A stretch of 35,940 bases of DNA from a virus. Each line of letters starts with the position of its first letter. Within the stretch, counting starts at the first letter, position 1. Positions 4,821 to 35,880 of this stretch are shown one piece after another. The notes beneath the pieces are model-generated. The model saw only the letters and a list, made by a program, of their open reading frames with translations, ran no database searches and had not been told where the DNA came from. A program made the translations under genes and the position numbers. The DNA lies in IMG/VR virus record IMGVR_UViG_3300005605_000008, positions 1 through 35,940 of that record, one strand, 5' to 3'.

Positions 4821-7800
4821 TCAGAAACAGGTAAAAAGTTAATTGAACTTAAATCTGTCTCTTTTTTGACTTCCAATAAAGTATCAACCGCATCTCTCAT
4901 AGAATCAATATGAGATACAATCAATGTGAATTGGAATTGGGCTTTTAAATATTGGAATAGTTGATATACAGAATTGATATTTTCACTATCCATTGTTCCC
5001 CAACCTTCGTCTATAGCTAAAAAGTTAGATGATGGTAAATTAGATACATTCATTAATCCCACTCTAAGTGCCAATGAACATATAAACCTCTCCATACCAC
5101 TTGATAATTCTAATGGCCAAATATTATCATCATCATATACAATATAATTGTTAATATTCTTACCATCCATTTCAAATACTATTTGAAAATCAACTAACGA
5201 AGATAAAATATTATTTACCTCTCCCTCAATCGTTGGTAAAGCTTTTGTAATCAACTCATATGGAACACCATCTCGTTTAATAGCATCTAAATAATACTGA
5301 TAAGCTACTGATTCATTCTCTAACTTTTCTACTTTATCAATATTCTCTATTATATTCTTTTTCTTATTTACTAAAACTTGTTTAGACGCATATAAATTTC
5401 TTAATTTTTTATTTAACTCTGTAATATCAGTTTCTAACTCTTTTTGTGTTCCAGATAGTTTATCAATTTTTAATTGTAATTCTTTATTAAATAATACATC
5501 TTTTTCTTGTTCATAATATTTTGAAATTTTTTCTTGTATTGTTTTTACTTGAGATAATACGTTCTTCTTTTTTTCATCATTAATAGTTAATTGAGTTTCT
5601 AAATTATTTTTCTTTTTTAATGTACCTTCAACTTGAGTCAAAAGATTATCTAAATCTTCTTTATGATTTTTAACATGAAATAAAGTTTTTATTTTTTGTT
5701 CATAATCATCAATATGATTTAAAAACTTATCAGCTAATTTTCTATCTTCGTTTAATTCTGTTTTTGTTTTAATAGCATCCTTTACAAAAACATTATTCAT
5801 ACAATAACCACAATCAGGGTCATATTCCAAATCTTGTAACTTTTCTAATTTATCTAATTTAGACCTAACTGAAATCTGTAATTTATCTATCTCAACTTTA
5901 ACATCATCTCTATCTTTTTCAATCTGATCTAAATTTGCACATTGTTCTTCTATACCATCATCTATATATTTTTTAATTTTAGATTTACATTCATTAATTT
6001 CAAGTGTATATTCTGATAATGACTTATCACTCTCAGCTGAATAAGTATTATATTTTTCTAAATGATTTTCAAGATTAGTATTTTCAGATTTCAATAACTC
6101 AATATCAGTAATACTATCATCTACTGGACGTTGTTTACTATATATTGTTTTTATATCATCTGAAAGTCTTTTGTATTTTTTATCTAATTCTTCTAATTTA
6201 GTTTCTTCACTTCTTAAATCAGTAGTTATTGTTTTATAATTTCGTTTTATCTCAACCAACTCATTATCATAATCATTCTCTCTAAAATTCTTTAATACCG
6301 CTCTGACATCTTTGATATTTTCAGATGCTATTTGATATAAAGTATCAAAAATACCAATACCCATAAACTGAGCTAATAACTCTTTTCTTTCTTTTTGTGT
6401 TTTATCAATAAAAACAGTATTGTTTATTTGAGATGATAAGGCTGTAAGAATAAAATCTTCATATGTTCCAAGAACTTTTCTAATAGAAGCATTTGTAGTT
6501 CTTCGTTGGTCACCATTCAAAGATTCTTTTTGTCCAATGTCATCAAATGTATAGAAATCCACATCAACTTTAACATGACCACTTTTTAATTTTTTACCAT
6601 ATCTTTCAATATAATAATCTTTACCATTTACCTCTACACATACCTTACAGGAAAACCAATCTTTTTTATTATTCAAAACATTATCAGCTTTAAATGCTCT
6701 ACTTGAAGTATCAAACAAACAAAAAGATAAAGCATCTAATAAAGATGATTTACCACTTGCGTTAGGTGCAAAAATACCTACAATACCATTTAGTTTTGTA
6801 AAGTCTACAACATTATCCTCACCATAACTAAACATATTAGAAAAATCAAATCTTTTTAAATTCCAATCTATATTCCTACCAACTTCTTCTTCAGGTAATT
6901 TAGTATTTAATTCTTCATTTATTTCTTTTATTTTAACATATGTCTCATCATCTACTATAAAGTTCTGGTCTAAATAAGTTTTAATTAAATCAAACTGAAA
7001 ATCTGTTGATGTTATATCTCCAATATTAATTTTATTTCCACGTATTCTATCAGATTGTGATAAAGGGTCTGTCCTCGTAACAGTAAATTCTCTTATCTTA
7101 GGATATGTATGTTTTACAGTTGTCATAATACGTTTAACTTCAGCAGCATTAGTATCAGCAACTCTCATACGAACTCGTGCTTTAGGTGGGAAATAAGAAA
7201 TATCAGGTAACTTACCATTCTCTACATCAAGAGTAACATATCCGTAACTATTTGGTATCTCAATATACTCTGATTTTCTTTTTGGAACATCCCATAATAA
7301 ATAACCTTTACCAATATCTTCACCATGATTCTGTTGAACTAATGAACCACAATAAGAAATAGTTTCTTCTTTATTCAAATGTTGTCTTTTATGAATGTCA
7401 CCCAAAAGTCCGAGATCGTACCCATCAAATTTATCTATATGTACATCTGATGGAAGTCTAAATCCTAAATCTGTTTTAGCTTGGTCTACTGTACCGTGAA
7501 AGAGCACTACTTTAGTATCCCCTTCGACCTCAGACGCTTTTGGGTATTTACTCTCTTTGTCCCAAACATCCCATACTACCAATGAAGTATCGGCGCATTT
7601 ATACACACCAGTATTTCGTAAGTAATGTAAGTTAGAATGATTGATGTTTTCGACAATAGGAGTTAATACATCTAACCTTGAAAGGTTATTTAAATTACAA
7701 TCGTGATTCCCTGCTATTAATATCGTTGGACATATATCAGCTAAATTCCTAAATAAATCAGATAACATATCTATTAACTCTGGAGACATATCTAATTTTG

Positions 7801-9465: not shown

Positions 9466-9846
9466 TTAAAATTTATTTTTCCATTTTGGATATTCTTTAT
9501 TAGCCCATTTTTCAGCATCTTCTTCAAATTTATTATCATCGTGAAAATCACCACCTTTTTGTATAGCTAATTCACCATATTGATGATATAACCTTTCATA
9601 TTTTTTAGCACCCATTTTCTTTCTATCTAAAGCGTGTTTTATTTCGTGTAAAACCGTTATAATAAAATCCTTGACAGTTGGGTAACTTTTTCGTAAATTT
9701 ATAGTGTCAGTTGTCCAATTATAATCACCCTTATCTTTACCAGTAGTAATTTTAACTTTAGACTTTAACTTATGTAGTTTTACAATCTGTTGAGCTGTAT
9801 CAACAATATCCATTCTTTCTATTAATAAATTTTTTAATTTAATCAT
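9466..9846 (-). CDS. HExxH metallopeptidase-like protein with MIKLK N-terminus
   Basis: A 126-residue protein starting MIKLKNLLIER. The zinc-binding helix is VLHEIKHALD (H67, E68, H71). A later acidic helix, KFEEDAEKWANKEY (~107-119), could give the third ligand (E108, E109 or E112), as in ImmA/IrrE-type or other gluzincin folds. The middle has a DTINLRKSYP strand-turn typical of small zincins. There is no signal peptide or membrane segment. The start overlaps the end of the PAP2 gene by 8 bases. The N-terminal leader with L-I-E at positions 8-10 matches three neighbouring genes and looks like a capsid-targeting peptide with a prohead-protease site, which would make this a head-packaged peptidase. 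The peptidase call is good; packaging is inference. Confidence 0.72.
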   Translation of the reverse strand: MIKLKNLLIERMDIVDTAQQIVKLHKLKSKVKITTGKDKGDYNWTTDTINLRKSYPTVKDFIITVLHEIKHALDRKKMGAKKYERLYHQYGELAIQKGGDFHDDNKFEEDAEKWANKEYPKWKNKF

Positions 9847-10471
9847 GTTTAAAAGCTCTATACATAATACCAGCTATTTTCTTACCATATTGTTTATCTG
9901 ATGGGAAATGTGCTTTTGCTAATAATCTACTTTGTGCTATTGCTTCACTCAACTGGTCTATCTGATTTGACATAGTTGGTAAATAAGATTTTAAAACCCA
10001 ACCAACCAAATATCCTTGAACTGCATGACCACTTGGATATGATGGTGTTTTCATACTATCTAATTTAGTTCCATTTAGATTCATACCATAAAACTCTGCG
10101 ATTTGATATGGTCTTGGTCTATTGTATTTATACTTCAAATATAAAATATCTCTCGAAGATTGTTTAACAACACTTTCAATCAATTCAATATATTCTTCTT
10201 CATTTATTCCATTTTGATCTAATAATTCACCAAAAGCTTTGGGTATATCATCATAAAGTTCGATAGACTCTCTATCACCTTCTTCTAAATTAGTTATATA
10301 TTTAAGTTCTTTTAAAGTTGTTTTACTATCATTTTCTGGAGGTAACTGCTGTGGGAAAACCATTACAGAAAAATTAGGGGCTTCCTTAACCATCTTTTTT
10401 TTATGTTTGGGTTTAATGACATTTGTATATTTCATTTCCCTCAAAGTAAGTAAATCTTTTAACTTAATCAT
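9839..10471 (-). CDS. Soluble PAP2-superfamily phosphatase with MIKLK N-terminus
   Basis: From ATG 10471 the product is 210 residues. An upstream ATG at 10492 is possible, but 10471 forms an ATGA overlap with the preceding stop and gives the MIKLKDLL leader shared with neighbours. All three PAP2 / vanadium-haloperoxidase signatures are intact: K113-x6-R120-P121 (KYKYNRPRP), PSGH at 146-149 and S181-R182-x5-H188-x3-D192 (SRLLAKAHFPSD). No clear transmembrane helices are visible, unlike lipid phosphatases of the PgpB type, so it is more like soluble class A acid phosphatases. The substrate could be a phospholipid headgroup, a nucleotide or another phosphomonoester. The leader contains L-R-E at 10-12, a candidate gp21-type cleavage site. 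A PAP2 enzyme delivered with the genome would be unusual. Confidence 0.85.
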   Translation of the reverse strand: MIKLKDLLTLREMKYTNVIKPKHKKKMVKEAPNFSVMVFPQQLPPENDSKTTLKELKYITNLEEGDRESIELYDDIPKAFGELLDQNGINEEEYIELIESVVKQSSRDILYLKYKYNRPRPYQIAEFYGMNLNGTKLDSMKTPSYPSGHAVQGYLVGWVLKSYLPTMSNQIDQLSEAIAQSRLLAKAHFPSDKQYGKKIAGIMYRAFKHD

Positions 10472-10842
10472 CTTTGTAACCACTTCTTCCATAAACTATA
10501 ATCAATAATGTTTGAAGTTTTTGGTTCTAAATCTTTTGGTTTACCAGTACCTCTTTTTTTAATATTAATTGTATAGGCTGTTTTACCTTTTGGATTTATA
10601 ACAAATACTCCACCAGGAAGATTACTAATTTGATATCCTTTTGCTACAAAAAACTTCAGACTTTCTTTTTTATAAATCATTTTATTTCCACCAGGACCCG
10701 CAGTAGACAATTGTCCAGTTGGTTTACTATTACTACCAAGTATGTAAACATAAAAAGGTCTCTTTACGGTAAAATGTTGAGTATCACTGCCGTATAATCC
10801 GTGTTTATATGCTTCTTTTATTAAATCTTTTAATTTAATCAC
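10468..10842 (-). CDS. Hypothetical protein with MIKLK leader, GTG start
   Basis: A 124-residue protein. The start is GTG at 10842, forming GTGA with the stop of the gene before it. The leader MIKLKDLIKEA closely matches three adjacent genes and contains I-K-E, a good fit to the [IL]xE consensus cut by T4-type prohead proteases. The rest is basic and beta-rich (FYVYILGSNSKPTG, GGVFVINPKGKTAYTINI), with Gly/Pro turns and no cysteine, signal peptide or membrane helix. No enzymatic motif is recognised. Its place between two other leader-bearing genes and the tight overlaps suggest the four are made together, plausibly as internal head proteins. Confidence 0.75.
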   Translation of the reverse strand: MIKLKDLIKEAYKHGLYGSDTQHFTVKRPFYVYILGSNSKPTGQLSTAGPGGNKMIYKKESLKFFVAKGYQISNLPGGVFVINPKGKTAYTINIKKRGTGKPKDLEPKTSNIIDYSLWKKWLQR

Positions 10843-11156
10843 TTTAGTGCCCTCATTACATCTATTGGTTTTACATTCTCATCACCCATATAAGCTATAT
10901 CTTCTGGGTTTTTAATAATTTTTTTGATTGTGTTTTTTTCTCTTGATGTTAATGTTATTGGTTTTTCATCTAACGACATTCCAGTTGCATATCCAACTCC
11001 ACTAACATATTCTCTTCTCATATTGAAATAAACGACTTTCCACTTACCAGCTGGAGCTCTATCTACAACTAATTCAACTTCTTTACCTCTACCACCTAAC
11101 CCAACACGAGCTGAACCTACTTTAATTTCACTTATTAATTCTTTTAATTTAATCAT
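10839..11156 (-). CDS. Hypothetical basic protein with MIKLK leader
   Basis: The 105-residue product starts at ATG 11156, which overlaps the preceding stop as TAATG. A longer reading from 11171 adds only MGKKI and would break both the coupling and the shared leader. The leader MIKLKELISEI includes I-S-E, a candidate prohead-protease site. The body has a strand-rich section (KWKVVYFNMRREYVSG) and a C-terminal helical part (TSREKNTIKKIIKNPEDI). Overall it is basic, without cysteines, signal peptide or catalytic motif. Function is unknown. It is the first of the four leader-bearing genes in transcription order. Confidence 0.75.
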   Translation of the reverse strand: MIKLKELISEIKVGSARVGLGGRGKEVELVVDRAPAGKWKVVYFNMRREYVSGVGYATGMSLDEKPITLTSREKNTIKKIIKNPEDIAYMGDENVKPIDVMRALK

Positions 11157-11308
11157 TATCTTCTTCCCCACATTGGTGTTTGAACTCCTTTTTCTTCTTG
11201 TTTAGCTAAATATTTTTTATGTTGTGCTGAAGTTCTACCCTCAGTAGCCCATTTCTTGTTTAGTGCTGCTTTTTTACGTTTTCTATCTTTTGCTTTTCTA
11301 TTTGGCAT
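11156..11308 (-). CDS. 50-aa strongly basic hypothetical protein
   Basis: A short frame encodes 50 residues beginning MPNRKAKDRKRKKAALNKKW and ending GVQTPMWGRR, with about one third Lys/Arg. It is predicted to be one or two charged helices with no hydrophobic core, consistent with a nucleic-acid-binding or intrinsically disordered peptide. Both ends are TAATG overlaps: its ATG shares a base with the thioredoxin-like stop and its TAA shares a base with the next ATG. Perfect tiling between two genes is the main reason to accept it. Function is unknown. Confidence 0.75.
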   Translation of the reverse strand: MPNRKAKDRKRKKAALNKKWATEGRTSAQHKKYLAKQEEKGVQTPMWGRR

Positions 11309-11718
11309 TAGTTAGTACTCCTTCTTCTTTTATTTGTTGGTGGATAATCTATACCCATTTTTATATCTATCTCAGTAACTGCATTCTTACCATCAATAGT
11401 TGCTTTCCATTTTTTAATAGGTTTACCATCTTTATATAAAACTACAGATGGAAATGTTCTCAATTTATTTCTACGTGTTTCTCTGGGTGTATCTTTCGTA
11501 TCTGCGTGAAATATCTTCGTACCTTTATGTCCCTCTATACCCATAAACTTATCTATACTACATACACCAGCCCATCCTGCACAAAACTCAACTACAGAAA
11601 ACCCTTTTGCTGTCTTTACTGCAAAATCTGCATCCGTTATAGGATTTTCTTTCTTCACTACCTCATATTGTGCACTTAATGAACCAATCATCATTAACAT
11701 CATTAACATTTTTCTCAT
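11308..11718 (-). CDS. Exported thioredoxin-fold protein with degenerate active site (AxxC)
   Basis: A 136-residue protein with an N-terminal signal peptide (MRKMLMMLMMIGSLSAQ, cleavage expected before Q17). The thioredoxin fold is seen in the strand VVEF, the active-site loop at 46-53 (CAGWAGVC) and the cis-proline loop TFPSVVLYKDGKPI (P90). The usual WCxxC has become W-A-G-V-C: the nucleophilic first Cys is Ala50, Cys53 remains, and an extra Cys46 sits three residues before the Trp-Ala pair. It therefore probably cannot act as a normal dithiol reductase but may bind, hold or isomerise partners in the periplasm. The tail (NKRRRSTN) is basic. It lies between the MshEN-domain gene and the basic peptide gene in the envelope module. 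Confidence 0.8.
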   Translation of the reverse strand: MRKMLMMLMMIGSLSAQYEVVKKENPITDADFAVKTAKGFSVVEFCAGWAGVCSIDKFMGIEGHKGTKIFHADTKDTPRETRRNKLRTFPSVVLYKDGKPIKKWKATIDGKNAVTEIDIKMGIDYPPTNKRRRSTN

Positions 11719-11720
11719 AA

Positions 11721-12281
11721 CTATTTCCTATCTCGCTTTTTAGCTAATTCAACTTTCAGTTCAACGATTTCTTCTTCAAGTTTTTCAACTTGTTCTTCTA
11801 AATCTGAAACTGCGGCCTCTAACCCTCCGACTTGAGTTTTATATTGTTCCATAGAACTCGGCCAGTTATATCCTGTAAGTCTTGATGGATATTCTTCCTC
11901 ATATATATTATCTATCTTTGGAAGTTCTTTTGCTTCTTGTATTTCACCTATCATCATATAATAAAATCCAACAAATGTTGCTATACCAACTCCAGCACTA
12001 ATTATAGTTTTGACTGATAAAGTAAATTTTGTATTTTCACTCAATTCTTTTTTCATAACCTTTTCCTCTGTAACTTCGTTTTCATTCCATCTTGATTTAG
12101 GACCGTTATTCATCATAACTTCAGTCATATCGTCTATAGTTAAATATCCTAACTCAACTAAAATTTCACCTAATTTTCTATTATCACCAGTTTCTTGCAT
12201 GGCAAGAGCCTTGTTCAACTGTCTTTTAGTTAAAACATCTCCATCTAATAATATATCCCCCAACTTTTTACCGCTAACCAT
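11721..12281 (-). CDS. MshEN (GspE N-terminal)-like domain, membrane-anchored, with external coiled coil
   Basis: The 186-residue protein has three parts. Residues ~4-58 resemble the MshEN / T2SSE N-terminal domain, with tandem motifs KLGDILLDGDVLTKRQLNKAL and KLGEILVELGYLTIDDMTEVM (abutting helices ~20 residues each). Residues ~88-112 are one transmembrane helix. Residues ~150-182 are a Glu/Lys coiled coil. MshEN domains of pilus and secretion ATPases bind cyclic di-GMP. Here the second motif is close to consensus, but the first has Asp15 where Gly is usual, and the final Gln of motif 2 is absent, so nucleotide binding is uncertain. There is no ATPase domain. N-in topology would place the coiled coil in the periplasm. 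A ribosome site (AGGAGAA) precedes the start. Confidence 0.7.
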   Translation of the reverse strand: MVSGKKLGDILLDGDVLTKRQLNKALAMQETGDNRKLGEILVELGYLTIDDMTEVMMNNGPKSRWNENEVTEEKVMKKELSENTKFTLSVKTIISAGVGIATFVGFYYMMIGEIQEAKELPKIDNIYEEEYPSRLTGYNWPSSMEQYKTQVGGLEAAVSDLEEQVEKLEEEIVELKVELAKKRDRK

Positions 12282-12296
12282 TATTTTATTCTCCTA

Positions 12297-12530
12297 TTAT
12301 GAGCTTTTTTTCCCGCCCATAACTTTTTCTACTCCAGCTATTCCGAAACAACCTAATGTAATATATAGAAAACTATTATACACAAAATCGTTTATGGGTA
12401 ATTCCATACCGAAATATCCAGTTACCAAGTCTGTCATACTATACATAGTCATGACAGCAAATGACATAAAACCTATTATTGTTTTTTCGTTAAAATCATT
12501 CTCATCTTTGAAAATGTCTTTGAATGCCAT
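12297..12530 (-). CDS. Putative holin (77 aa, two transmembrane helices)
   Basis: A 77-residue protein with a charged N-terminus (MAFKDIFKDENDFNEKT), two hydrophobic helices (~18-39 and ~47-68) joined by a short loop (GMELPINDF), and a polar Lys/Ser C-terminus (GGKKSS). Size and layout match class II holins, which open the inner membrane to time lysis. A similar N-terminal motif is, from memory, common in small membrane proteins of marine T4-like phages. No endolysin was recognised in the window; the nearest enzyme-like neighbour is the 104-aa Cys-His-Asp protein. Holin function is inference from form. Confidence 0.6.
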   Translation of the reverse strand: MAFKDIFKDENDFNEKTIIGFMSFAVMTMYSMTDLVTGYFGMELPINDFVYNSFLYITLGCFGIAGVEKVMGGKKSS

Positions 12531-12531
12531 T

Positions 12532-12672
12532 TTACTTCCCCTGTTTTATTTTTTCCCTTATCTTTATTATTCTCTCTTTCAAATCTTTTTTCACCATCAT
12601 CATATCTTTTGGTGTTACTTTAATTCTTTTCTTTCCGATTTCTCTCGGTTCATCTATGTGAAATGTTTTCAT
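12532..12672 (-). CDS. 46-aa basic hypothetical protein
   Basis: A short frame encodes 46 residues starting MKTFHIDEPREIGKKRIKV and ending in a Lys/Arg/Glu helix. Its ATG shares one base with the stop of the 81-aa gene (TAATG), and its TAA is one base from the holin start. There is no signal peptide or membrane helix. The N-terminal DEPREIGKKRIKVTP piece looks like a beta hairpin and the rest a single amphipathic helix. Function is unknown. Close tiling with both neighbours is the evidence that it is translated. Confidence 0.68.
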   Translation of the reverse strand: MKTFHIDEPREIGKKRIKVTPKDMMMVKKDLKERIIKIREKIKQGK

Positions 12673-12917
12673 TAATTACTCTTTGAAATTTTAACTGTTG
12701 TTCCACTATCTGATTTTGATGTAGTCCTAACAACTTTTTTAATTGGTTGTGATACTTTTTTTACAGGTTGAGTTTTTATTTTTTCTAACATATCCTTAGC
12801 CTCTTCTACTTTAACTCTTGCTTCGTTTGCAGCATCTCTATTTCCTTCTAACATTCTACGTCTTAATTCCATTTCCGCCTTATCAACTATCTTATTCGCT
12901 TCTTTCAAATCAACCAT
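12672..12917 (-). CDS. 81-aa coiled-coil hypothetical protein
   Basis: The protein has 81 residues. Residues ~3-48 form a highly charged helix (heptad-like Ala/Leu/Val with Glu/Lys/Arg), then a Pro/Lys/Val-rich stretch with near repeats (QPVKKVSQPIKKVV), then a Ser/Thr/Lys tail. It lacks cysteines, signal peptide and membrane segment. It has its own ribosome site (AGGAGAAAAG). Perhaps a small structural or scaffolding component; no function can be assigned. Confidence 0.7.
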   Translation of the reverse strand: MVDLKEANKIVDKAEMELRRRMLEGNRDAANEARVKVEEAKDMLEKIKTQPVKKVSQPIKKVVRTTSKSDSGTTVKISKSN

Positions 12918-12927
12918 AACTTTTCTC

Positions 12928-13242
12928 CTAACGTGGTGGTTTTAAATCCCAAGGTCCCCAATGTTTCTTTCTCAATACTTTTATACTCACTTGTTCAGGA
13001 GTATACTTATAAAGTTTAGTTCCCTTTACAGGTGCTTTTAATAAAGCATAATATAATTGTTTTGGAAAATTAATATCATTTCCATTACTCTTATCAATAC
13101 ATTTTCCTTTGTATTCTACCCAACAATGTCCAAATGGTTTTCCATCGGTTTGAAGAATACCAACTCCATGTACTAATCTAGCTGAATCATCCATACCGAT
13201 AATTTCTCTACCATTAGCAGCGTAACAATCTCCTTTTGACAT
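12928..13242 (-). CDS. 104-aa protein with possible Cys-His-Asp catalytic triad
   Basis: The protein begins MSKGDCYAANGREIIG and contains GHCWVEYKGKCIDKSNG at 38-54. Cys6, His39 and Asp50 occur in the order and local settings (G-D-C-Y at a helix start, H in a strand, D in the next strand) seen in papain-like or transglutaminase-like small enzymes. Two more Cys (40, 48) are present. The C-terminus is basic and aromatic (KKHWGPWDLKPPR). It could be a cysteine peptidase, amidase or lysis enzyme, or a non-enzymatic relative. I recall similar short GHCWVEY proteins in marine phages but know no function. Its start shares a base with the stop of the 40-aa gene. Confidence 0.65.
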   Translation of the reverse strand: MSKGDCYAANGREIIGMDDSARLVHGVGILQTDGKPFGHCWVEYKGKCIDKSNGNDINFPKQLYYALLKAPVKGTKLYKYTPEQVSIKVLRKKHWGPWDLKPPR

Positions 13243-13364
13243 TATGGTAATTTACTCCAAACATCCATAAATCTTATAAATCCATACATAATATACATTA
13301 AAATACTTCCTGCCGCTACATGTAATAAATATTCAATTGTATTTAATATTGTTTCAATCTTCAT
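13242..13364 (-). CDS. 40-aa single-pass membrane peptide
   Basis: A short frame encodes 40 residues: a short N-terminal helix (MKIETILNTIEYLLH), one hydrophobic helix (~16-33) and a short tail ending DVWSKLP. The start overlaps the previous stop as ATGA, and the stop overlaps the next start as TAATG. Small membrane peptides in phage late regions often aid lysis or modify the envelope, but nothing specific can be claimed. Exact tiling supports translation. Confidence 0.68.
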   Translation of the reverse strand: MKIETILNTIEYLLHVAAGSILMYIMYGFIRFMDVWSKLP

Positions 13365-14080
13365 TTCCAATCCCATATTTTAACTAAATTATAAGTTACT
13401 CCTACACCTATAGTTGGTGTAGTTAATCCAGTATCACTATTATATAGAATACCTAACATTGGTCCTATTGAAATTTGATTTCTCGGTGGTTTTATTTTCA
13501 ATATCTCACTACTACCACCTTTTATTTTCAAATTCAAAAATTCACTATCAGGATAGATTGCTCTATATTCATATCTATCCAATTTTTCTAATTCAGGTGG
13601 ACCTAAATTAAGTTCACCTGAAAAATCGGCTATTGTTTTAGATTCAACTATTTTATTATCACGAATCCGTAAACCAGTTCTGCCGAACACTTTTATATAA
13701 TTATCTTGTGTTCCAAATTCCTGTAAAAATGGAACAGTAGATGACTCATAACTTAATAAATCTAACTGTAAAGCCTCTACGGTATCAATCAAATTTTGTA
13801 ATCTTTGTTCGTATTCTTTACTCCAACGAACTATATCATATAAATCTTTAGATAATCTCTTTAGTTGTTGTTCTTGAGTATCACTATCTATTTGTAATCT
13901 TCTCGTAACTGTAGATATACTATCAATTGAAGATTCATTTTTAACTATAAGTTGTTCTTGTCTTGTACTATCTTCTTTTAGAAAGTCGTATTCTTCTTTA
14001 GCATATTTATATCTTATTGTAAAAATAGATAAAACAAATATAACATTTATAGCTATACCTAATAAGGTATCTTTTGTCAT
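13361..14080 (-). CDS. Inner-membrane-anchored coiled-coil protein with beta C-terminus
   Basis: A 239-residue protein. Residues ~6-24 form one transmembrane helix, ~28-110 a long coiled coil (TRQEQLIVKNESSIDSIS onward), and ~130-239 a beta-rich domain ending in GPMLGILYNSD and TPTIGVGVTYNLVKIWDWK. The ending resembles a pair of outer-membrane-type strands. A single anchor, a periplasm-length coiled coil and a C-terminal beta unit could bridge inner and outer membranes, as i-spanins and efflux adaptors do. It is coupled (ATGA) to the CsgG-like gene before it, so it may form a complex with the CsgG-like proteins. No family was recognised with certainty; similar proteins occur in phages of Bacteroidota. 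Confidence 0.62.
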   Translation of the reverse strand: MTKDTLLGIAINVIFVLSIFTIRYKYAKEEYDFLKEDSTRQEQLIVKNESSIDSISTVTRRLQIDSDTQEQQLKRLSKDLYDIVRWSKEYEQRLQNLIDTVEALQLDLLSYESSTVPFLQEFGTQDNYIKVFGRTGLRIRDNKIVESKTIADFSGELNLGPPELEKLDRYEYRAIYPDSEFLNLKIKGGSSEILKIKPPRNQISIGPMLGILYNSDTGLTTPTIGVGVTYNLVKIWDWK

Positions 14081-14715
14081 TTTAAACTTACCGACGCGTC
14101 ATCTATTGCTTTTCTTAAAGCACCACCCAATTCACTATTACTAAAAGGAACACCATCTTCTTCAATCTGTAAACCTGTAGCAGATATCTTTGTATCAATC
14201 TCACCCATACCTCTACTTGTGGTTACTTTACCAGTAGCATTCTCTGTTAATAATATATTCAACCTTACTTGTGTTTTTGTTTTTCTACGATTGAATATAC
14301 CAACAATACTAAATGCTTCGTTTGGTCTACCAATATAAACTATCTCTGCTGATACTGTAAAATTAGCATCACTATCATCAGTTAAAATATAATCTGATTC
14401 TTGAAATGACTCTTGTAATAGTTGTTGTATTCCCATAGTGATTCTATCATCTTTGATACCAACATTCTCACTCGTACCTACAAACTTAGATACAGTTAAT
14501 GTTGGTCTAATTAAATCAGCATCTATAATCGCTGGAACTGGTAGATTTTGAGCTTTAGCTTCTTGTCTTGCCTGTTCTCTACGTTCATTAGCTTCATTTT
14601 TCATCCGTTGTATTTCTACTTGAGCAGTAGCAACACTACATAATGTAATTGTTAATACTCCTAAAGTAAATATTTTGAATCCCAAACGTAATACTTTAGT
14701 TTTAATATAATTCAT
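14077..14715 (-). CDS. CsgG-like secreted protein (second copy)
   Basis: A 212-residue protein with a signal peptide ending ATAQ (~32), a charged helix (EIQRMKNEANERREQARQEA) and a C-terminal domain of CsgG type. The domain has RPTLTVSKFVG, a MGIQQLLQESF helix, ANFTVSAEIVYIG, then KTQVRLNILLTENATGKV and GGALRKAIDDASVSL. These follow the order of elements in CsgG: first strand, helix, GSI strand, membrane hairpin region, TGEI strand and final helix. There is no lipobox Cys at the cleavage site, unlike canonical CsgG and the sibling at 15733-16395. CsgG forms nine-subunit export pores in the outer membrane for curli. The ribosome site is GGGGAT. Assignment is by eye and homology is remote; LpoB-like is another possibility. 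Confidence 0.6.
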   Translation of the reverse strand: MNYIKTKVLRLGFKIFTLGVLTITLCSVATAQVEIQRMKNEANERREQARQEAKAQNLPVPAIIDADLIRPTLTVSKFVGTSENVGIKDDRITMGIQQLLQESFQESDYILTDDSDANFTVSAEIVYIGRPNEAFSIVGIFNRRKTKTQVRLNILLTENATGKVTTSRGMGEIDTKISATGLQIEEDGVPFSNSELGGALRKAIDDASVSLK

Positions 14716-14726
14716 ATTTATATCCC

Positions 14727-15725
14727 CTAAAAATAAGTTCCAAATAAAATACTGAAAGTCTTATCTCGTTCCCCATAATCATTAACTACGGTGTTATATC
14801 CCATTGAAACACCTAAATTAAAGGAGAATGCCGTACCTAATTTCCAATCCATTGATATAGTTGGCATAAAAATGATAGGACTTCTCAGTAATAAATATCT
14901 ATCATCTGGATTATTACCTTCATAATATCTCCACAAAGTATAAGCAATATAGTTAGAAAAAGTAATTGTATTACCACCAATTATTTTAAATGGAAATCTT
15001 TGTCCATATACCATTGTTATATTTGCAAAGTCATTACCACTAACACTTCCATAACTACCTGTTAAAACGAATGCTTCTGCGTTTTTCTTCTGTAATGATT
15101 TCGCAAATGAAGTAGATAATAACCAATCCCATCCCTCAAATGTTTTATATGTTAACCCACTTCCATTCAATACTACGTTTTGTTTTTTAGCTGTAAATTT
15201 AAATCCTTGTCCATATGTAAGAGAACCTTTTCTTAAATCATCTGTAAAGTTAAAATTACCATCGTGTCGTTTACTACCATCAAATGATGTTGCAGTATAG
15301 ACACTATTAAAAGATGTTATCCATCTTTCTTCACCTTGTGTAGAACGAATTGCATAATTTACCTGTTGTGGTGTAGATGAAATATCTTCTCCACCACCCT
15401 CATCTTTACTAAATTGTTCACTAACATTTTCTGCAATTACTGATGATAATATTTCTTCAGCAACTTTTACGGCACAGGGAAATAAGTCCTCAAAGTCTTT
15501 ATAAACACTTTGTGTCCATCTTTCTAAATCACCATTTAATACTTCTTGTAATGTAAAGAACTTAGTACGATTGTAGTAAGTTACGTGAAATCCTTGTTGT
15601 TCACCACTAATTACTACATTAGTACGAACTACAGTTTGTTCACAAGGGTCTATATAAGAATAGAAGAATGATTGGGCAGAAACACTACTCCAAAGTAAAA
15701 AAATTAATATAAGTTTCTGCCACAT
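14727..15725 (-). CDS. Secreted outer-membrane beta-barrel-like protein (332 aa)
   Basis: The signal peptide (MWQKLILIFLLWSSVSAQ) is followed by a small N-terminal domain with two Cys in IDPCEQT and LFPCAVKV, likely a disulphide. A linker rich in Glu/Asp/Gly comes next. Residues ~125-332 alternate polar and hydrophobic residues with aromatic belts (WITSFNSVYTATSF, LTYKTFEGWDWLLSTSF, TFSNYIAYTLWRYYEG), and the C-terminus ends in Phe (ILFGTYF), the standard outer-membrane barrel signature. It sits between two CsgG-like genes, so a role in the same export or surface structure is likely. I do not recognise a named family. Confidence 0.65.
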   Translation of the reverse strand: MWQKLILIFLLWSSVSAQSFFYSYIDPCEQTVVRTNVVISGEQQGFHVTYYNRTKFFTLQEVLNGDLERWTQSVYKDFEDLFPCAVKVAEEILSSVIAENVSEQFSKDEGGGEDISSTPQQVNYAIRSTQGEERWITSFNSVYTATSFDGSKRHDGNFNFTDDLRKGSLTYGQGFKFTAKKQNVVLNGSGLTYKTFEGWDWLLSTSFAKSLQKKNAEAFVLTGSYGSVSGNDFANITMVYGQRFPFKIIGGNTITFSNYIAYTLWRYYEGNNPDDRYLLLRSPIIFMPTISMDWKLGTAFSFNLGVSMGYNTVVNDYGERDKTFSILFGTYF

Positions 15726-15732
15726 TCATCTT

Positions 15733-16395
15733 TTACCAACCTCTTCGGTCAATTGCTTTTATAACATTGACTACGGCGGTCTCCATAGCTTTATTTGATG
15801 CGGAACTTAAAGAACTTTGATTCCAAGCCATATTAGGATTCATAAGAAATCCTTTACCTATGGTTGAAGCTCTTCCTTGACCACTACCAACAACATATTG
15901 TGTATTCTCATTGTTAATTAATTTAACCTGAATACCAACTATTGTTTCATTGATAGTCTCCACCTTACCAGCTTTTATTTCTTCTTTTAGATTGACAGCA
16001 AAATCATAAATACTAACACTTGCTGAATACTTAGCTTTTGTTATCTTTGCATCATTTGCTCTCAAATCATTCATAATCAAAAGTTGCATATCTCTTTCCG
16101 CTTCTACTAAATTAAATCTCCCCACATAAGATATTACATTTTGAAGTTCTTGAACCAAACCCATAGAAACTCTTTTGTCTGCTAATTCAGGGTATCGTTC
16201 TTCTAACTCTTTGTTAAACTTTAAATCATAAAGTTTTAATCCATCAACTTTTGTTACTACGATTTCATCTAAAGATTTTTCTTTTTCATACTCACCTACA
16301 TATTGTTCTGTTTGAACGGAAGCGGCACATCCTATTATATTGGATACAACCAAACCGAAAACAAAAAACAATATAAAACGATAATTGTTTTTCAT
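15733..16395 (-). CDS. CsgG-like outer-membrane lipoprotein
   Basis: A 220-residue protein with a lipoprotein signal peptide whose lipobox is I-I-G-C (C23). The mature part has DEIVVTKVDGLKLYDLKF, a helix with RVSMGLVQELQNVI, FNLVEAERDM, a SASVSIYDFAV strand, ETIVGIQVKLINNENTQYV and a GSGQGR strand, ending with a NKAMETAVVNVIKAI helix. This follows the layout of CsgG-family lipoproteins, which assemble outer-membrane channels; CsgG-domain genes have been reported in marine viruses. The Gly/Ala/Met/Asn-rich stretch before the last helix fits a membrane-inserted hairpin. It has a strong ribosome site (AGGAGATAAC). With its sibling at 14077-14715 and the barrel gene between, it may build a phage-specified export or surface channel. 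Confidence 0.62.
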   Translation of the reverse strand: MKNNYRFILFFVFGLVVSNIIGCAASVQTEQYVGEYEKEKSLDEIVVTKVDGLKLYDLKFNKELEERYPELADKRVSMGLVQELQNVISYVGRFNLVEAERDMQLLIMNDLRANDAKITKAKYSASVSIYDFAVNLKEEIKAGKVETINETIVGIQVKLINNENTQYVVGSGQGRASTIGKGFLMNPNMAWNQSSLSSASNKAMETAVVNVIKAIDRRGW

Positions 16396-16404
16396 TGTTA
16401 TCTC

Positions 16405-16797
16405 CTATTTAAAATCTGCTAATGGATCTTTAAGTAATTTTTCTAATTTCTTAATTTCACCTTTTAGTTTATCAATCTCATTGTTTAATTTCATTACATC
16501 TTTATCATAAGATTTAACTTTAGGTGTTTTTAAGTTATCAAGTTTATCACGAAGATATTTAATATCCTCATCATATCCATCTAACTTAGATGTTACTAAT
16601 TCTATATCACTTGCTTCTGCAAAACCATCTACAACTTCTTCTAATCCATCAATACGACCAGTAAATGAATACCAACCTGCTATTCCTGTTGATAGAACCG
16701 TTACGAGGGCTATGATATTTTGGATTGATAATCCGAACTTTTTGTTCTTCATATCTTCTATTGCGGATTCTGCATCCACTACTTTTTTCTTCGCCAT
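16405..16797 (-). CDS. Membrane-anchored coiled-coil protein (130 aa)
   Basis: Residues 1-24 are a charged cytoplasmic section, ~26-46 a transmembrane helix (NIIALVTVLSTGIAGWYSF), and ~50-125 charged coiled coil (YDEDIKYLRDKLDNLK and LNNEIDKLKGEIKKLEKLL). No cysteine or lipobox is present. Spanin-like or secretion-adaptor roles are possible. It lies between the PorV-like barrel (1-base gap) and the CsgG-like lipoprotein, so it is likely co-made with them. Its plan echoes the 239-aa protein at 13361-14080 and the C-terminal part of the MshEN protein: three single-pass coiled-coil proteins in one module. Confidence 0.68.
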   Translation of the reverse strand: MAKKKVVDAESAIEDMKNKKFGLSIQNIIALVTVLSTGIAGWYSFTGRIDGLEEVVDGFAEASDIELVTSKLDGYDEDIKYLRDKLDNLKTPKVKSYDKDVMKLNNEIDKLKGEIKKLEKLLKDPLADFK

Positions 16798-16798
16798 T

Positions 16799-17659
16799 TT
16801 ACAACTCCAGGTTTATTGTTAATCTAATTGTGTTACTCAAAGGTAACTCTCTATTACCATAAATATAACTCATACCTATCAAATACTTGTCATACTTAAA
16901 ATCTAATCCAAATGTTGGATAAGTTAGTTCGTGTGTAGTATCTAAGTAATATCCTAACTTCCCCCACAACATATTTTTATAATTATAACTTGTCCCCATA
17001 CCAAATGTTTGATGTTTTTTCATTTTATTAAATTGTCCATAAAACATAAAATCTTCATATGGATATGTTCCAGCTATATTTACACTTGTAGGTAGTTCTG
17101 ATTTATACCCACCAAATTTAGGTGCAAATCCAAAGTTATTAATCATAACATCTAAATATAAATCTTTGTATACTTTTGGAAAATAAGCACCCACACCAAA
17201 AACAAATCCATTTGCTTTTTGTGTATGTAAATCGTGTGTTATTATCTTTGCATTTAATCCTAAATTATATTTACCAACTTTACGTGCATAATCAACACTA
17301 TATATAGCACTCAATGGTGTAAATGTTCCTTGTATAATTCCATTTTCATCTGCTTGATTTTGTTCTCCATAATTAAAGAACATAACATTAACACCAAACG
17401 GACCTCTATCCATATTTATAAAATTATAATTCATATCACTTACAATATTAGTCATCCAATTTACTCTACTAAAACTGAAATGGTCTTTGTTATATAAATT
17501 ACGAGCTGGATTCATCATTGGTAACATTACATTACCTATCGAACTCGTTTGAGCCGTAGGTGCTACTGTTAATATTCTATTTGCTTGTGCCAATAATTGA
17601 CTACCTAACGATAGTAATATTGCCAAACCAAATAATATCCAAAATTTATTTTTTCTCAT
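16799..17659 (-). CDS. PorV/UPF0164-like outer-membrane barrel (T9SS-associated)
   Basis: A 286-residue protein with a signal peptide (ending SQLLAQ). The N-terminus of the mature part has the pattern seen in PorV/PorQ and UPF0164 barrels: a region starting AQTSSIGNVMLP, NPARNLY (NPA), then FSRVNWMTNI. Alternating strands run to a C-terminal TIRLTINLEL. Family members are FadL-like 14-stranded barrels; PorV carries T9SS cargo from the translocon to the attachment complex. The gene lies just downstream of a T9SS-sorted protein, separated only by a 38-aa peptide gene that overlaps both. A PorV-like role for the phage cargo is therefore attractive, but the match is remote, and PorP/SprF or a generic barrel cannot be excluded. 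Confidence 0.55.
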   Translation of the reverse strand: MRKNKFWILFGLAILLSLGSQLLAQANRILTVAPTAQTSSIGNVMLPMMNPARNLYNKDHFSFSRVNWMTNIVSDMNYNFINMDRGPFGVNVMFFNYGEQNQADENGIIQGTFTPLSAIYSVDYARKVGKYNLGLNAKIITHDLHTQKANGFVFGVGAYFPKVYKDLYLDVMINNFGFAPKFGGYKSELPTSVNIAGTYPYEDFMFYGQFNKMKKHQTFGMGTSYNYKNMLWGKLGYYLDTTHELTYPTFGLDFKYDKYLIGMSYIYGNRELPLSNTIRLTINLEL

Positions 17660-17762
17660 TTTTTCTCTCTATTTTTTCAGAAACCCAAACAATAAATTTC
17701 AAGGTGAAATATAATGATGGAAGCATTACAGCTATAGCGAAGAAAAATTGTAATTCACTCAT
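17646..17762 (-). CDS. 38-aa single-pass membrane peptide between T9SS cargo and PorV-like gene
   Basis: A short frame encodes 38 residues: MSELQFFFAIAVMLPSLYFT and a basic tail (VWVSEKIERKNEKK). It has one transmembrane helix and a positively charged C-terminus, suggesting N-out/C-in orientation. Its ATG shares a base with the stop of the T9SS cargo gene (TAATG), and its last 14 bases overlap the start of the PorV-like gene. This overlap at both ends is the case for a real, coupled gene. Function is unknown; accessory to secretion or lysis is possible. Confidence 0.65.
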   Translation of the reverse strand: MSELQFFFAIAVMLPSLYFTLKFIVWVSEKIERKNEKK

Positions 17763-20700
17763 TATTTCACCACCGTAAATTTACTTGACTTAATTCTATT
17801 ATCTGTTTGCATTACAAATATATAAACACCAGGTTCTAACTTTTGATGATTTTCATACACACTAACTCCAGGTAGAAAAACACTTGGTTCATTAGTAAAT
17901 TCAAAAGTATGTAATCCCTGTAATATGTGTTCATCTAATAATGTTCCAACTCTCTGTCCTATTGAATTTAAGATATATAATTTTACATCTTTTGATTCAT
18001 CTAAAAAGAATTGGAATGTTGTGTTCTCCATAAAAGGATTTGGATAATTGTATGTTATTGCTTCTTCATCTGGTTTTCCACCACCGAATGCCCAATACTT
18101 ATTCCATACTAATACTTCACCATCTTTTCTTTCCATAGTCAAATCACGACCTGATGGATTACCTGCTGCGTGTTTACCTACAAATCGTATTGGAGCATTT
18201 GTCCATTCAACATCAGGAAATGTTGCTTTGAAAAGTAATTTTAATCCTACCATCTCTTGACTTATATGATAAGTTTCAGGTGCATTATTTGGTGAATAAT
18301 CCATACCACCAAATGAAATTCTTTGCCATCCATTTTTAGGTTCATGAACATTCACATAAGTCATCCAGGGTCCTGGTAAAACATCTGTTTTCATATCTAT
18401 AAATTCTAAACCACTACTATCACCCTCTGCTAATTTATACTCTACTTCAAATTCAAATCCTGCTATAAGAACTCCCTCTTTTGGTGTAATCGTTAAAGGA
18501 ACTTCTATCTGATTACCAGATTGAACTCTAACAGTAGAATCAGCAGGTAAAGAAAGAACTACATCTGTAATTCCATCTGCAAAATCATCAAATGAATCGA
18601 ATCCATTTAAAGTATTGTTAGGTTCATCATTATCTGTATTAATTTTTTCTGCGTGTCTTGATGGTGCACTATTTCCCCAACGATAAAATGTAGAACCCTC
18701 ATTATCAATATATCCATCACTAACTGTACCTGCTTGTGCTTTAGTATAATCTATGTTCGCTGAACCGTTAAGTGTTGTTTGATGTCCATGACCCGTTGTT
18801 GTTCTACCAGTTTTACTGTCATCTACTTCGTGAACTTTTGTTCCTGTCATATTAATATCACCTGTAAAATAATATGCTATATCGGGCATTAGGTAATCTG
18901 GATTACCAGCTTGGTCATTTTTTTCACTTGTTCTCGCTGCACTCCAAGAAGAATACCCAGCACCTAATACTAAGTGAAGTGTATCCAATCCTGTTTGGTG
19001 GTCATCCATTAATGGATTTAAAATTTCTATCACTCCAGGTGTCAATGCTCTTTGATTTGTAGCTAAAGCTCTCGTTGTAGCCATTGGTGATTTTTTTCCA
19101 GCGTTAACTCCTGATGACCTATCTCCTCCAGTACTTGATTCTGCGGTTGTGGTCTCATCCCAAAAAACTGTAAACTCATATTTCTGTGGTCTTGATTGTC
19201 CGTTTACTGTTTGATAATATACATAGTTATTAGCGTTTCCACTTTCTTTAAATACTTCAATTGTAGACCAATCTTCGTGAGACCTACCAGTATGGTGTGT
19301 ATAGTTATTCATTATTCCTGATACATAAGACCATAAAATATATGTGTCATTTAGTTGAAATAAATCATCACCATCTACATCACCAACCAAATATTCAAAT
19401 GCAGTCATAGTATCTATTCTTGTACCAGGAGAATCTCTTGTTCCTGTATTATAATTCTTAAATTTATTTGATTGAAAATTAAATGAAGCTATAGCATCAC
19501 TTACATTTGTAATAGCTCCTCTATTTACATCAAAATGGTCATGTGTTTCTATATAATCACTTTCATCAGGTGGCCAAAATGAAATACGATATCTATTGTT
19601 TCTTGGTAGTTGAATGTTATAATATCCTTTGTCGTCTGTATAAGTTGAATCATAATAAGAGATACCAAGAAATCCCTCACCAGGTAAAGTTTGTTCTGCT
19701 GTAGAAACTGTACCATTAGCTGCTTTCTTATTAAATTGAAAAGTTGATGAATGGTCTCCAATAACATCATCAGTTGTAGTCTCATCTGATTTTTTAGCTG
19801 CTGTGTTTCCTGAATGGTTAGCTATTGTTTCATAATTCAACCAATTAGTTATTCTCGGATTAAAGTTAGCTTCATTGTGGTCTAACTCAAATTTTACTTT
19901 CCAATATGGATATGTGTTTTCTATAGGACCTCTTTCCCAAGCTGGTGAACCATCAGCATAATCCCATACTGCTCCCATACCTCTACCATTACCTTGAATG
20001 TATCTGAAGTATCCCTCAACATCTAATAGTTTTGGGTGTAGTGTAATATCACCACGTGCATGACCTATACCATCTTCGTGTGTTCCCACATTACCATCTA
20101 TATAAACTTTATATGATGTTAAATAATTTCCATTGGTTACATAAGTATAATATCCTGCCGCACCCTCATATTTTGTAGCCACTCGAAATGACTTGGGTGC
20201 AAAGTTATCTGCAACATCATCTACTTTAAAATGTAGTTTTAATAATTCTGTTTGATTTCCGTTACCATTACCGAACGTATGTGTACCACCATTATGTGAT
20301 ACCATTGTGATTCTTAACCAATCATAACGGTTGTTAGCTGCCGATTTTTCACTACCTGCAGTTTGTATTGAATCCACGTATCCCACATTATTATACCAAG
20401 TTACCTCATATGAATAATGATGTCCACTTTCTGCATTATCACCCTCAGTCCAACCTGATATGTACGCACCTTTTTCTACACGAACTGAATCGTGTCCTGT
20501 AAGAGTTGTATTATTCCAAGTAAATATATCATTGTCGAATACTAAATCCAAACGAAAAGCAGTTACACTAGCTCCATTATCATCAAGTGTAACAGCAATA
20601 GTCATTACTGAATCTCTCCACGCATCAAAATTATTATTCTTATATGCAGGTGTACCTGGTGCATCAGCCAAGTATGTTCTCAATGGTTGAGTAACTTGAT

Positions 20701-20815
20701 CTCTCCACCAAAACTTTGGTGTTTTGTAATCTCTCGATTGCATTAATCTTATGATGGGTGTTTGAGCTTGTAGCAAACCCACCAACATTAAGAAACTTAT
20801 TAGAAATTTCCGCAT
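17762..20815 (-). CDS. Large secreted protein with T9SS type A C-terminal sorting domain
   Basis: A 1017-residue protein with a signal peptide (MRKFLISFLMLVGLLQAQ). Residues ~60-230 resemble a cohesin-like beta sandwich (VTAFRLDLVFDNDIF). Around 385-430 is a carboxypeptidase-regulatory-like fold (DDKGYYNIQLPRNNRYRISF). GDVDGDDLFQLNDTYILWSY near 480 looks like a dockerin-type calcium loop. Residues ~780-900 resemble a second cohesin-like sandwich (VPLTITPKEGVLIAGFEFEV). Residues 922-1017 are a Por sorting domain with YPNPF (924-928), YILNSIGQRV, QGLHTFEF and LEPGVYIFVMQ...SSKFTVVK. Such domains send proteins through the T9SS to the cell surface, so this product should be displayed or released by the infected host. 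It follows the virion genes after a 125-base gap and heads the envelope module. No enzyme motif was recognised. Confidence 0.85.
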   Translation of the reverse strand: MRKFLISFLMLVGLLQAQTPIIRLMQSRDYKTPKFWWRDQVTQPLRTYLADAPGTPAYKNNNFDAWRDSVMTIAVTLDDNGASVTAFRLDLVFDNDIFTWNNTTLTGHDSVRVEKGAYISGWTEGDNAESGHHYSYEVTWYNNVGYVDSIQTAGSEKSAANNRYDWLRITMVSHNGGTHTFGNGNGNQTELLKLHFKVDDVADNFAPKSFRVATKYEGAAGYYTYVTNGNYLTSYKVYIDGNVGTHEDGIGHARGDITLHPKLLDVEGYFRYIQGNGRGMGAVWDYADGSPAWERGPIENTYPYWKVKFELDHNEANFNPRITNWLNYETIANHSGNTAAKKSDETTTDDVIGDHSSTFQFNKKAANGTVSTAEQTLPGEGFLGISYYDSTYTDDKGYYNIQLPRNNRYRISFWPPDESDYIETHDHFDVNRGAITNVSDAIASFNFQSNKFKNYNTGTRDSPGTRIDTMTAFEYLVGDVDGDDLFQLNDTYILWSYVSGIMNNYTHHTGRSHEDWSTIEVFKESGNANNYVYYQTVNGQSRPQKYEFTVFWDETTTAESSTGGDRSSGVNAGKKSPMATTRALATNQRALTPGVIEILNPLMDDHQTGLDTLHLVLGAGYSSWSAARTSEKNDQAGNPDYLMPDIAYYFTGDINMTGTKVHEVDDSKTGRTTTGHGHQTTLNGSANIDYTKAQAGTVSDGYIDNEGSTFYRWGNSAPSRHAEKINTDNDEPNNTLNGFDSFDDFADGITDVVLSLPADSTVRVQSGNQIEVPLTITPKEGVLIAGFEFEVEYKLAEGDSSGLEFIDMKTDVLPGPWMTYVNVHEPKNGWQRISFGGMDYSPNNAPETYHISQEMVGLKLLFKATFPDVEWTNAPIRFVGKHAAGNPSGRDLTMERKDGEVLVWNKYWAFGGGKPDEEAITYNYPNPFMENTTFQFFLDESKDVKLYILNSIGQRVGTLLDEHILQGLHTFEFTNEPSVFLPGVSVYENHQKLEPGVYIFVMQTDNRIKSSKFTVVK

Positions 20816-35466: not shown

Positions 35467-35880
35467 TTATCCTTTCACAGATGCAACACTCACAGGTGTT
35501 TCCACACGATAGGGTTTTTTACTACCATCTTTATTAAGAATGTTATGAAGTGTGCCATCCTGACCAATAATACGACTTCGTGTGTTTGATGTCGCAACAA
35601 ACTTAAAATCAGTATTTGGTCTTATCTTTACTACGGATTTATCATCAAGAAAAATGACTACACAGAAATCTTCTTTACCGAGGCTGATGTGGTCACCTTG
35701 GTGAACAGGAATACCAGCTTTTGCGGTTATAGTTTTTCCATTCCATTTTTTTAATTTTGGAGTACCATTGACTTTCATCACTAATCCTATCTTTAAAGTA
35801 TTTTCTTTCATCTCTACTCCACCAACAACTTTTGTAGGGTCATGTAAAACAACTTTAACACTACCTTTATTATCACTCAT
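35467..35880 (-). CDS. FecR-domain-like protein, ends at the VxG motif
   Basis: A 137-residue protein. Residues ~50-137 resemble the FecR beta domain: ITAKAGIPVHQGDHISLGKE, DFCVVIFLDDKSVVKIRPNT, DFKFVATSN and finally YRVETPVSVASVKG. FecR domains usually go on past this point (A-V-R-G-T-x-F), but here a double stop (TAATAA) follows directly. Either the family ends early in this phage or the downstream part is lost. In FecR the domain passes iron-siderophore signals across the periplasm; in a phage baseplate operon it is more likely a structural beta-helix unit. No signal peptide is present. It starts 11 bases after the gene at the right edge. Confidence 0.62.
   Translation of the reverse strand: MSDNKGSVKVVLHDPTKVVGGVEMKENTLKIGLVMKVNGTPKLKKWNGKTITAKAGIPVHQGDHISLGKEDFCVVIFLDDKSVVKIRPNTDFKFVATSNTRSRIIGQDGTLHNILNKDGSKKPYRVETPVSVASVKG

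Follow-up and report, generated by a model that had tools for sequence, protein, structure and literature searches.

A shared ten-residue leader on unrelated proteins of an uncultured T4-type phage lineage is a candidate capsid-targeting tag

Introduction

Why would four adjacent phage genes, whose products have nothing else in common, begin with the same short peptide? The question is posed by a 35,940-base IMG/VR virus fragment (the window, by which we mean this whole stretch of DNA), which carries genes for DNA metabolism, baseplate genes of T4 type and a run of genes for exported proteins, and which derives from an uncultured, probably marine phage. An earlier note, made from the sequence alone, had likened the shared peptide to the capsid-targeting peptide of T4 internal head proteins and had taken the four genes for a cassette of packaged effectors.

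Capsid-targeting leaders are known in T4 and P1. To our knowledge, the proteins injected beside phage DNA have been identified for only a few model phages, because such proteins share no recognisable sequence. Where one tag is common to unrelated proteins, the probably injected proteins of such phages can therefore be listed from sequence alone. Herein we report that the leader is very probably a lineage-specific capsid-targeting and cleavage tag of T4-type phages, borne by proteins that are packaged and probably injected; binding to the prohead core, packaging, cleavage and injection are all inferred.

Results

The four leader genes of the window

The four genes lie on the minus strand and overlap successively by 8, 4 and 4 bases (Table 1). 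Their products all begin MIKLK[N/D/E][L][L/I] (MIKLKNLLIER, MIKLKDLLTLREM, (M/V)IKLKDLIKEA and MIKLKELISEI, from gene 4 to gene 1) and do not resemble one another beyond the leader. The shared leader and the unrelated remainders are thus as the earlier note described them; the positions it gave (9466, 9839, 10468 and 10839) are the stop-side ends, the starts being at 9846 (ATG), 10471 (ATG), 10842 (GTG) and 11156 (ATG). Mechanical calling begins the open reading frame a few codons upstream for two of the four genes (MGKKI- and MEEVVTK-), and the MIKLK start was accepted for both because homologues fix it. The nearby [IL]xE, also pointed out before, follows the leader in every case, with its Glu at residue 10 in three proteins and at residue 12 (LRE) in the PAP2 protein.

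Table 1 Coordinates of the four leader genes and their leaders in the window; a slash marks the predicted cleavage point
Feature	Position	Strand	Remarks
Leader gene 1	10839..11156	-	105 aa, MIKLKELISE/IKVGSAR...
Leader MIKLKELISE of gene 1	11127..11156	-	
Leader gene 2	10468..10842	-	124 aa, GTG start, MIKLKDLIKE/AYKHGLYGS...
Leader (V/M)IKLKDLIKE of gene 2	10813..10842	-	
Leader gene 3, PAP2-type phosphatase	9839..10471	-	210 aa
Leader MIKLKDLLTLRE of gene 3	10436..10471	-	Glu at position 12
Leader gene 4, zincin-like metallopeptidase (VLHEIKHA), MPTase-PolyVal-like	9466..9846	-	126 aa
Leader MIKLKNLLIE of gene 4	9817..9846	-	

Homologues of gene 1 occur in four related records (G004 13011-13337, G016 5382-5693, G013 and G010). 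Across eight aligned homologues, the only invariant residues are M1, I2, K3, L4, E10, G14, G24 and K65. AlphaFold yields a good model, a small β-barrel plus helices, with pLDDT mostly 72-95 in the body and below 50 at residues 1-8; as modelled, the leader is a conserved tail outside the fold. No confident match to this fold was found in the PDB or BFVD. The gene 2 protein, for which the structure model is of low confidence, is 49-52% identical to the product of G018 65441-65707, a gene located 2.6 kb downstream of the prohead protease.

The gene 3 product matches the PAP2 profile PF01569 (E 8e-11, 42.2 bits, cut-off 27.2), and its catalytic motifs, read in the sequence, are complete (KxxxxxxRP, PSGH and SRxxxxxHxxxD). 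Its nearest solved structures are soluble, PhoC-like acid phosphatases (7f18, E 6.7e-8). The LRE site is kept in the homologue from G002, and the G001 homologue (MIKLQELLGIKK) is without it. Among 50,697 phage records, the PAP2 protein found only weak matches, to a BcrC-like protein of an Acinetobacter phage record.

For the gene 4 product, the match to MPTase-PolyVal (PF18818) stays below the cut-off (E 8e-4, 19.9 bits against 27.5), and HEIKH is present. Of the two enzymes that had been recognised by eye, the phosphatase is thus borne out by its profile, and the peptidase retains its HExxH motif with sub-threshold profile support. The peptidase has about 20 homologues; in all those listed, L[LI]xER immediately precedes the domain. 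No cultured relatives of this peptidase, or of a 312-aa leader protein, were found among the 50,697 phage records.

Distribution and conservation of the leader

Related records were found with the peptidase, the PAP2 protein and a protein of the baseplate as homology queries. The resulting set of 25 records includes two cultured phages, and its 1480 predicted proteins were grouped into 727 clusters. No N-terminal 5-mer is commoner in this set than MIKLK, which opens 17 unrelated clusters and occurs internally in none. Several leader genes may be present per phage, with five in G004 and four in G008.

The leader was also proposed as a search handle, and proved to be one. A scan of IMG/VR with a DNA pattern for MIKLK[DN]LLxE yielded at least 120 stretches; the permuted control MKILK[DN]LLxE gave 7 over the entire collection. 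Among the matches listed, 86 were inspected, 82 of which begin proteins 35 aa or longer, belonging to 49 clusters; an in-frame stop lies within 60 codons upstream in 80 of those 82, such that 80 of the 86 are starts of open reading frames. By comparison, 84,980 cellular genomes (257 Gb) contain 36 pattern matches, only 6 of which start a reading frame of at least 55 aa. In all sequences fetched, MIKLxx[LIMF][LIMVF]xE is present in no fewer than 85 unrelated families, and an alignment of 85 representatives has a mean column identity of 5%. Two simple accounts were discarded on these results: chance, or a general property of AT-rich coding sequence, is ruled out by the 17 versus 0 internal clusters, the permuted control and the rarity in cellular genomes, and mutual homology of the leader-bearing proteins is rejected by the clustering and by the alignment of representatives.

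The leader was not seen on any DNA polymerase, helicase, terminase or baseplate protein. Its appearance on many unrelated cytoplasmic proteins, which according to the earlier note would have refuted the packaging idea, is therefore not what we observe, given also its near absence from the cellular genomes. What did not survive is the four-gene cassette: the leader-bearing set is real, and its scope was drawn too small, since the tag is found on at least 85 families across the lineage.

Among the papers searched, none contains the string MIKLKDLL. In Methylophilales phage Melnitz, a narrow pattern revealed no general T4-style leader family beyond two proteins. Two cultured phages could allow the leader to be tested: Microcystis phage Mel-JY01, with paralogues beginning MIKLKSLLQE and MIKLMSLVTE (record positions 60276-60926 and 62056-62718; L132:10276-10926 and 12056-12718), and Flavobacterium phage immuto, whose protein QQO91719 begins MIKLIDLLTE.

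Because part of the 85-cluster set was itself selected with the motif, conservation was measured separately, on reading frames chosen on MIKL alone and with those picked by the pattern scan left out. Glu10, whose background frequency is 6%, was found in 65% of 22 clusters from the homology-found records and, among the matches listed, in 76% of 44 clusters from the other reading frames in the scanned loci. In these MIKL-selected frames, L or I predominates at positions 7 and 8. A few homologues have Asp at position 10 (MIKLKELMKD, MIKLADFFKD). The Leu and Lys codons of the leader are used at roughly genome frequencies, with the Ile codon at position 2 favouring ATT; the Leu and Lys usage implies that the constraint acts on the peptide.

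This codon usage bears on a possibility that the overlapping gene starts, which abut or overlap upstream stops, and the AT-richness of the leader would otherwise invite, namely that the leader acts in translation or expression, as an AT-rich start region that is under selection at the RNA level or has spread through gene conversion. Such an element would not be expected to vary in its Leu and Lys codons as the genome does, nor would a permuted leader of equal composition be almost absent; it assigns no role to Glu10 or to hydrophobic residues 7 and 8, and it does not accommodate the kinase described below, which in other phages has different leaders with the same Glu spacing. We rejected this RNA-level reading on synonymous codon use and the permuted control, and regard it as extremely unlikely.

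The head module of relatives

The 36-kb window has no head genes of its own, being without protease, capsid or scaffold genes. G008, however, is colinear with the greater part of the window (SbcC-like, primase, nuclease, zincin and baseplate genes, and exported proteins), and its contig also holds a whole head module and leader genes. Of 33 related records, 10 encode an S77 (gp21-type) prohead protease. In the contigs of at least 20 kb selected by the leader pattern, among the matches listed, the protease (PF03420) occurs in 20 of 35, and in 0 of 7 control contigs. The capsid protein of the relatives matches T4 gp23 (E 7e-33), and its prosequence ends LIDE/S, A or T after about 64 residues (65 in T4), the cut being predicted only. 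On sequence evidence, the closest well-covered relatives of the window encode T4-type head machinery, though the window itself lacks head genes.

As far as the contigs reach, G016, G018 and G008 share the order terminase, portal, protease, several leader genes, scaffold, capsid. In the homology-found records, 10 of 17 leader starts are no more than 5 kb downstream of the protease, where 1.6 are expected. In the leader-found records, among the matches listed, the figure is 15 of 56 versus 6.6 expected, with P 0.0008 by count and P 0.12 when counted per record, some records being near-duplicates. Homologues of gene 1 lie in the head module in G004 and G016 and beside other leader genes in G013 and G010; the gene 2 homologue lies in the head module of G018.

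This proximity raises the question of whether the leader could be a tag for assembly of the prohead core only, with the tagged proteins digested or kept in the head and no effector delivered. Many leader genes do stand among the protease, scaffold and capsid genes, as do the homologues of two window proteins, and T4 provides a precedent in gp22, gp67 and gp68, core proteins that are cut to fragments (PMC5694885). Those leader proteins that are encoded in the head module may indeed be core proteins only, never injected, and the two small window proteins may be core proteins rather than effectors, because their relatives are encoded in the head-gene cluster. As a general account it is improbable in our judgement, as many of the tagged products can be recognised as enzymes (zincin, PAP2, NUDIX, Zeta-type kinase, HD, GNAT, NT5C, 2H) and many tagged genes stand away from the head cluster, those of the window included.

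The head module also weighs on the idea that the leader serves as a different kind of signal at the protein level, such as an amphipathic helix that binds membranes, or a degron acting in the infected cell. A short, cationic and hydrophobic peptide would suit such a role, and the gene 1 model has a small, low-confidence helix at residues 4-7. This would leave unexplained both the conservation of Glu10 and the co-occurrence with, and clustering beside, the prohead protease, and we hold it to be very unlikely. Each prediction of the capsid-targeting reading that sequence allowed us to check was borne out, and the likeness to the T4 peptide that was first suggested for the window is now supported, at the level of sequence, by unrelated carriers, an [LI]xE ending at residue 10, a gp21-type protease and gp23-type capsid in relatives, and homologues in the head cluster.

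Tagged enzymes and polyproteins

The recognisable tagged proteins comprise zincin, PAP2, NUDIX, Zeta-type kinase, GNAT, HD, NT5C, lysozyme, ART-PolyVal-like and 2H/Acb1-like proteins. The 2H protein was not accepted as Acb1 and is called no more than 2H/Acb1-like, because its Pfam match to Acb1 is below the cut-off and no PDB match was obtained. Two further leader proteins look ADP-ribosyltransferase-like by eye, L112:8013-8558 (G015 28013-28558; VYRG..SFTYN..EVFH) and L145:472-1008 (YHYTN), and neither has a Pfam match. Many tagged genes, as in the window, stand away from the head cluster.

Fusions were also found (NUDIX-zincin and kinase-NT5C). When the zincin is fused behind NUDIX, LLxER is retained before it, with MIKLK absent. 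In the Zeta-type kinase, [LV]xE/G precedes the P-loop by exactly 14 residues whatever the leader: MKTFAELQE in Methylophilales phage Melnitz, MIPFILKE in Pelagibacter phage HTVC008M, MIKLKDLLSE in this lineage and, inside a polyprotein of Agrobacterium phage Atu_ph07, EVTE. LLxER before the zincin and [LV]xE/G before the kinase fit putative processing sites; alternatively, LLxER and ExG could belong to the domains themselves and not be cleavage sites.

Other genes of the window and the probable host system

Several other genes, all on the minus strand of the window, merit description. A PorV/PorQ-family protein (16799-17659; NCBIfam NF033709, 97 bits, cut-off 90) adjoins a 1017-aa protein (17762-20815) with a type IX secretion sorting domain over the cut-off (TIGR04183). 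The phage thus seems, from these profile matches, to carry a type IX secretion system (T9SS) substrate plus a shuttle-type partner, and its host probably has such a system. The window also has a block of lipoprotein- or signal-peptide-bearing proteins (13361-16797) that are 57-94% identical in G008, with no Pfam match in any protein scanned; they represent conserved exported proteins.

Beside the leader genes, and without a leader, is a thioredoxin-like protein (11308-11718; PF00085, just over the cut-off) with an apparent signal peptide. A small C...HCWVE...D protein (12928-13242; see also L068:9624-9998) shows a weak Transglut_core3 match and is 81% identical in G018; a C...HAWVE...D protein in G020 and L155, similar in appearance, bears the MIKLK leader. 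A FecR-domain protein (35467-35880; PF04773, over the cut-off) lies beside the baseplate genes, and phage Melnitz has FecR and curli-secretion genes.

Discussion

By analogy with T4, hydrophobic residues 4 and 7 of the leader would dock the tagged protein into the prohead core, the S77 (gp21-type) prohead protease would cut after Glu10 ([LI]xE/), and the mature protein would be freed inside the head. That it would then be ejected with the DNA at the next infection is inferred from the enzyme cargo and from T4 precedent. In the window, the leader would mark four such proteins, namely a soluble zincin, a soluble PAP2 phosphatase and two small proteins. The leader, its peptide-level conservation, its presence on at least 85 families, the protease and gp23-type capsid motif of colinear relatives and the clustering behind the protease are what we read from sequence comparison. 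No virion proteomics was found for any member of the lineage. The weak points of the tag reading are that the fragment has no head genes, that the PAP2 Glu is at position 12, that one PAP2 homologue has no site, and that the association with the protease is weaker in the motif-selected contigs.

Three things are new here: the leader family itself, the finding that no fewer than 85 protein families of an uncultured lineage use it, and a list of candidates for injection that can be read from sequence. It is rather likely, in our view, that in this uncultured T4-type lineage, with hosts that probably have a T9SS, a single ten-residue tag serves as a general head-loading code on at least 85 families, including ADP-ribosyltransferase-, kinase-, NUDIX-, HD-, GNAT- and 2H (Acb1-like)-type enzymes, some in polyproteins with possible internal protease sites. 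If true, the set of proteins that each phage injects at time zero becomes readable from sequence, since a consensus this clear allows the whole lineage to be searched for proteins that are injected or packaged in the head. The tag would give a first functional assignment to dozens of families without known function, and predicts which enzymes are active at the very onset of infection, with host defences as a plausible target.

The closest known system is that of T4. In IPIII, a ten-residue leader is enough for packaging, targeting relying mainly on residues 4 and 7 and processing on residues 8 and 10, and Asp10 stops processing without stopping targeting (PMC9026906). The leader described here conserves these same four positions. 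As with the leader of IPI, IPII and IPIII, ten residues with hydrophobic positions 4, 7 and 8 precede otherwise unrelated proteins, Glu10 provides a gp21-type site, and a gp21-type protease and gp23-type capsid are encoded by the phage (here, by relatives). The two differ in sequence, however: IPII and IPIII begin MKTYQEFIAE/A, and only M1, E10 and the hydrophobic character of positions 4, 7 and 8 are common to both. Beyond these positions the leader shows no similarity to MKTYQEFIAE, and common descent of the leaders is not shown; that the leader works like the T4 signal is therefore better supported than that it descends from it. Unlike T4, with its three internal proteins, the present lineage is uncultured and has at least 85 tagged families, many of them enzymes, and its leader genes also crowd behind the protease gene.

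Other systems share parts of this arrangement. In P1 DarB, an N-terminal signal of fewer than 30 residues suffices to package a reporter (PMC9024508); the N-terminal position is common to both, whereas the Dar proteins lack the kind of common consensus that all cargo bears here. Ejection proteins of phiKZ and SPN3US have N-terminal propeptides that a gp21-type protease removes after xxE (PMC5694885). Those propeptides often exceed 100 residues and are mostly not shared, in contrast to the ten shared residues of the present leader. The phage polyvalent proteins of Iyer et al. (2017) include MPTase-PolyVal zincin and ART domains predicted to be injected (PMC5512222). Unlike these, the cargo here consists mostly of separate small proteins, each with its own tag, with some fusions too (NUDIX-zincin, kinase-NT5C) and a possible protease site between the domains of the NUDIX-zincin protein.
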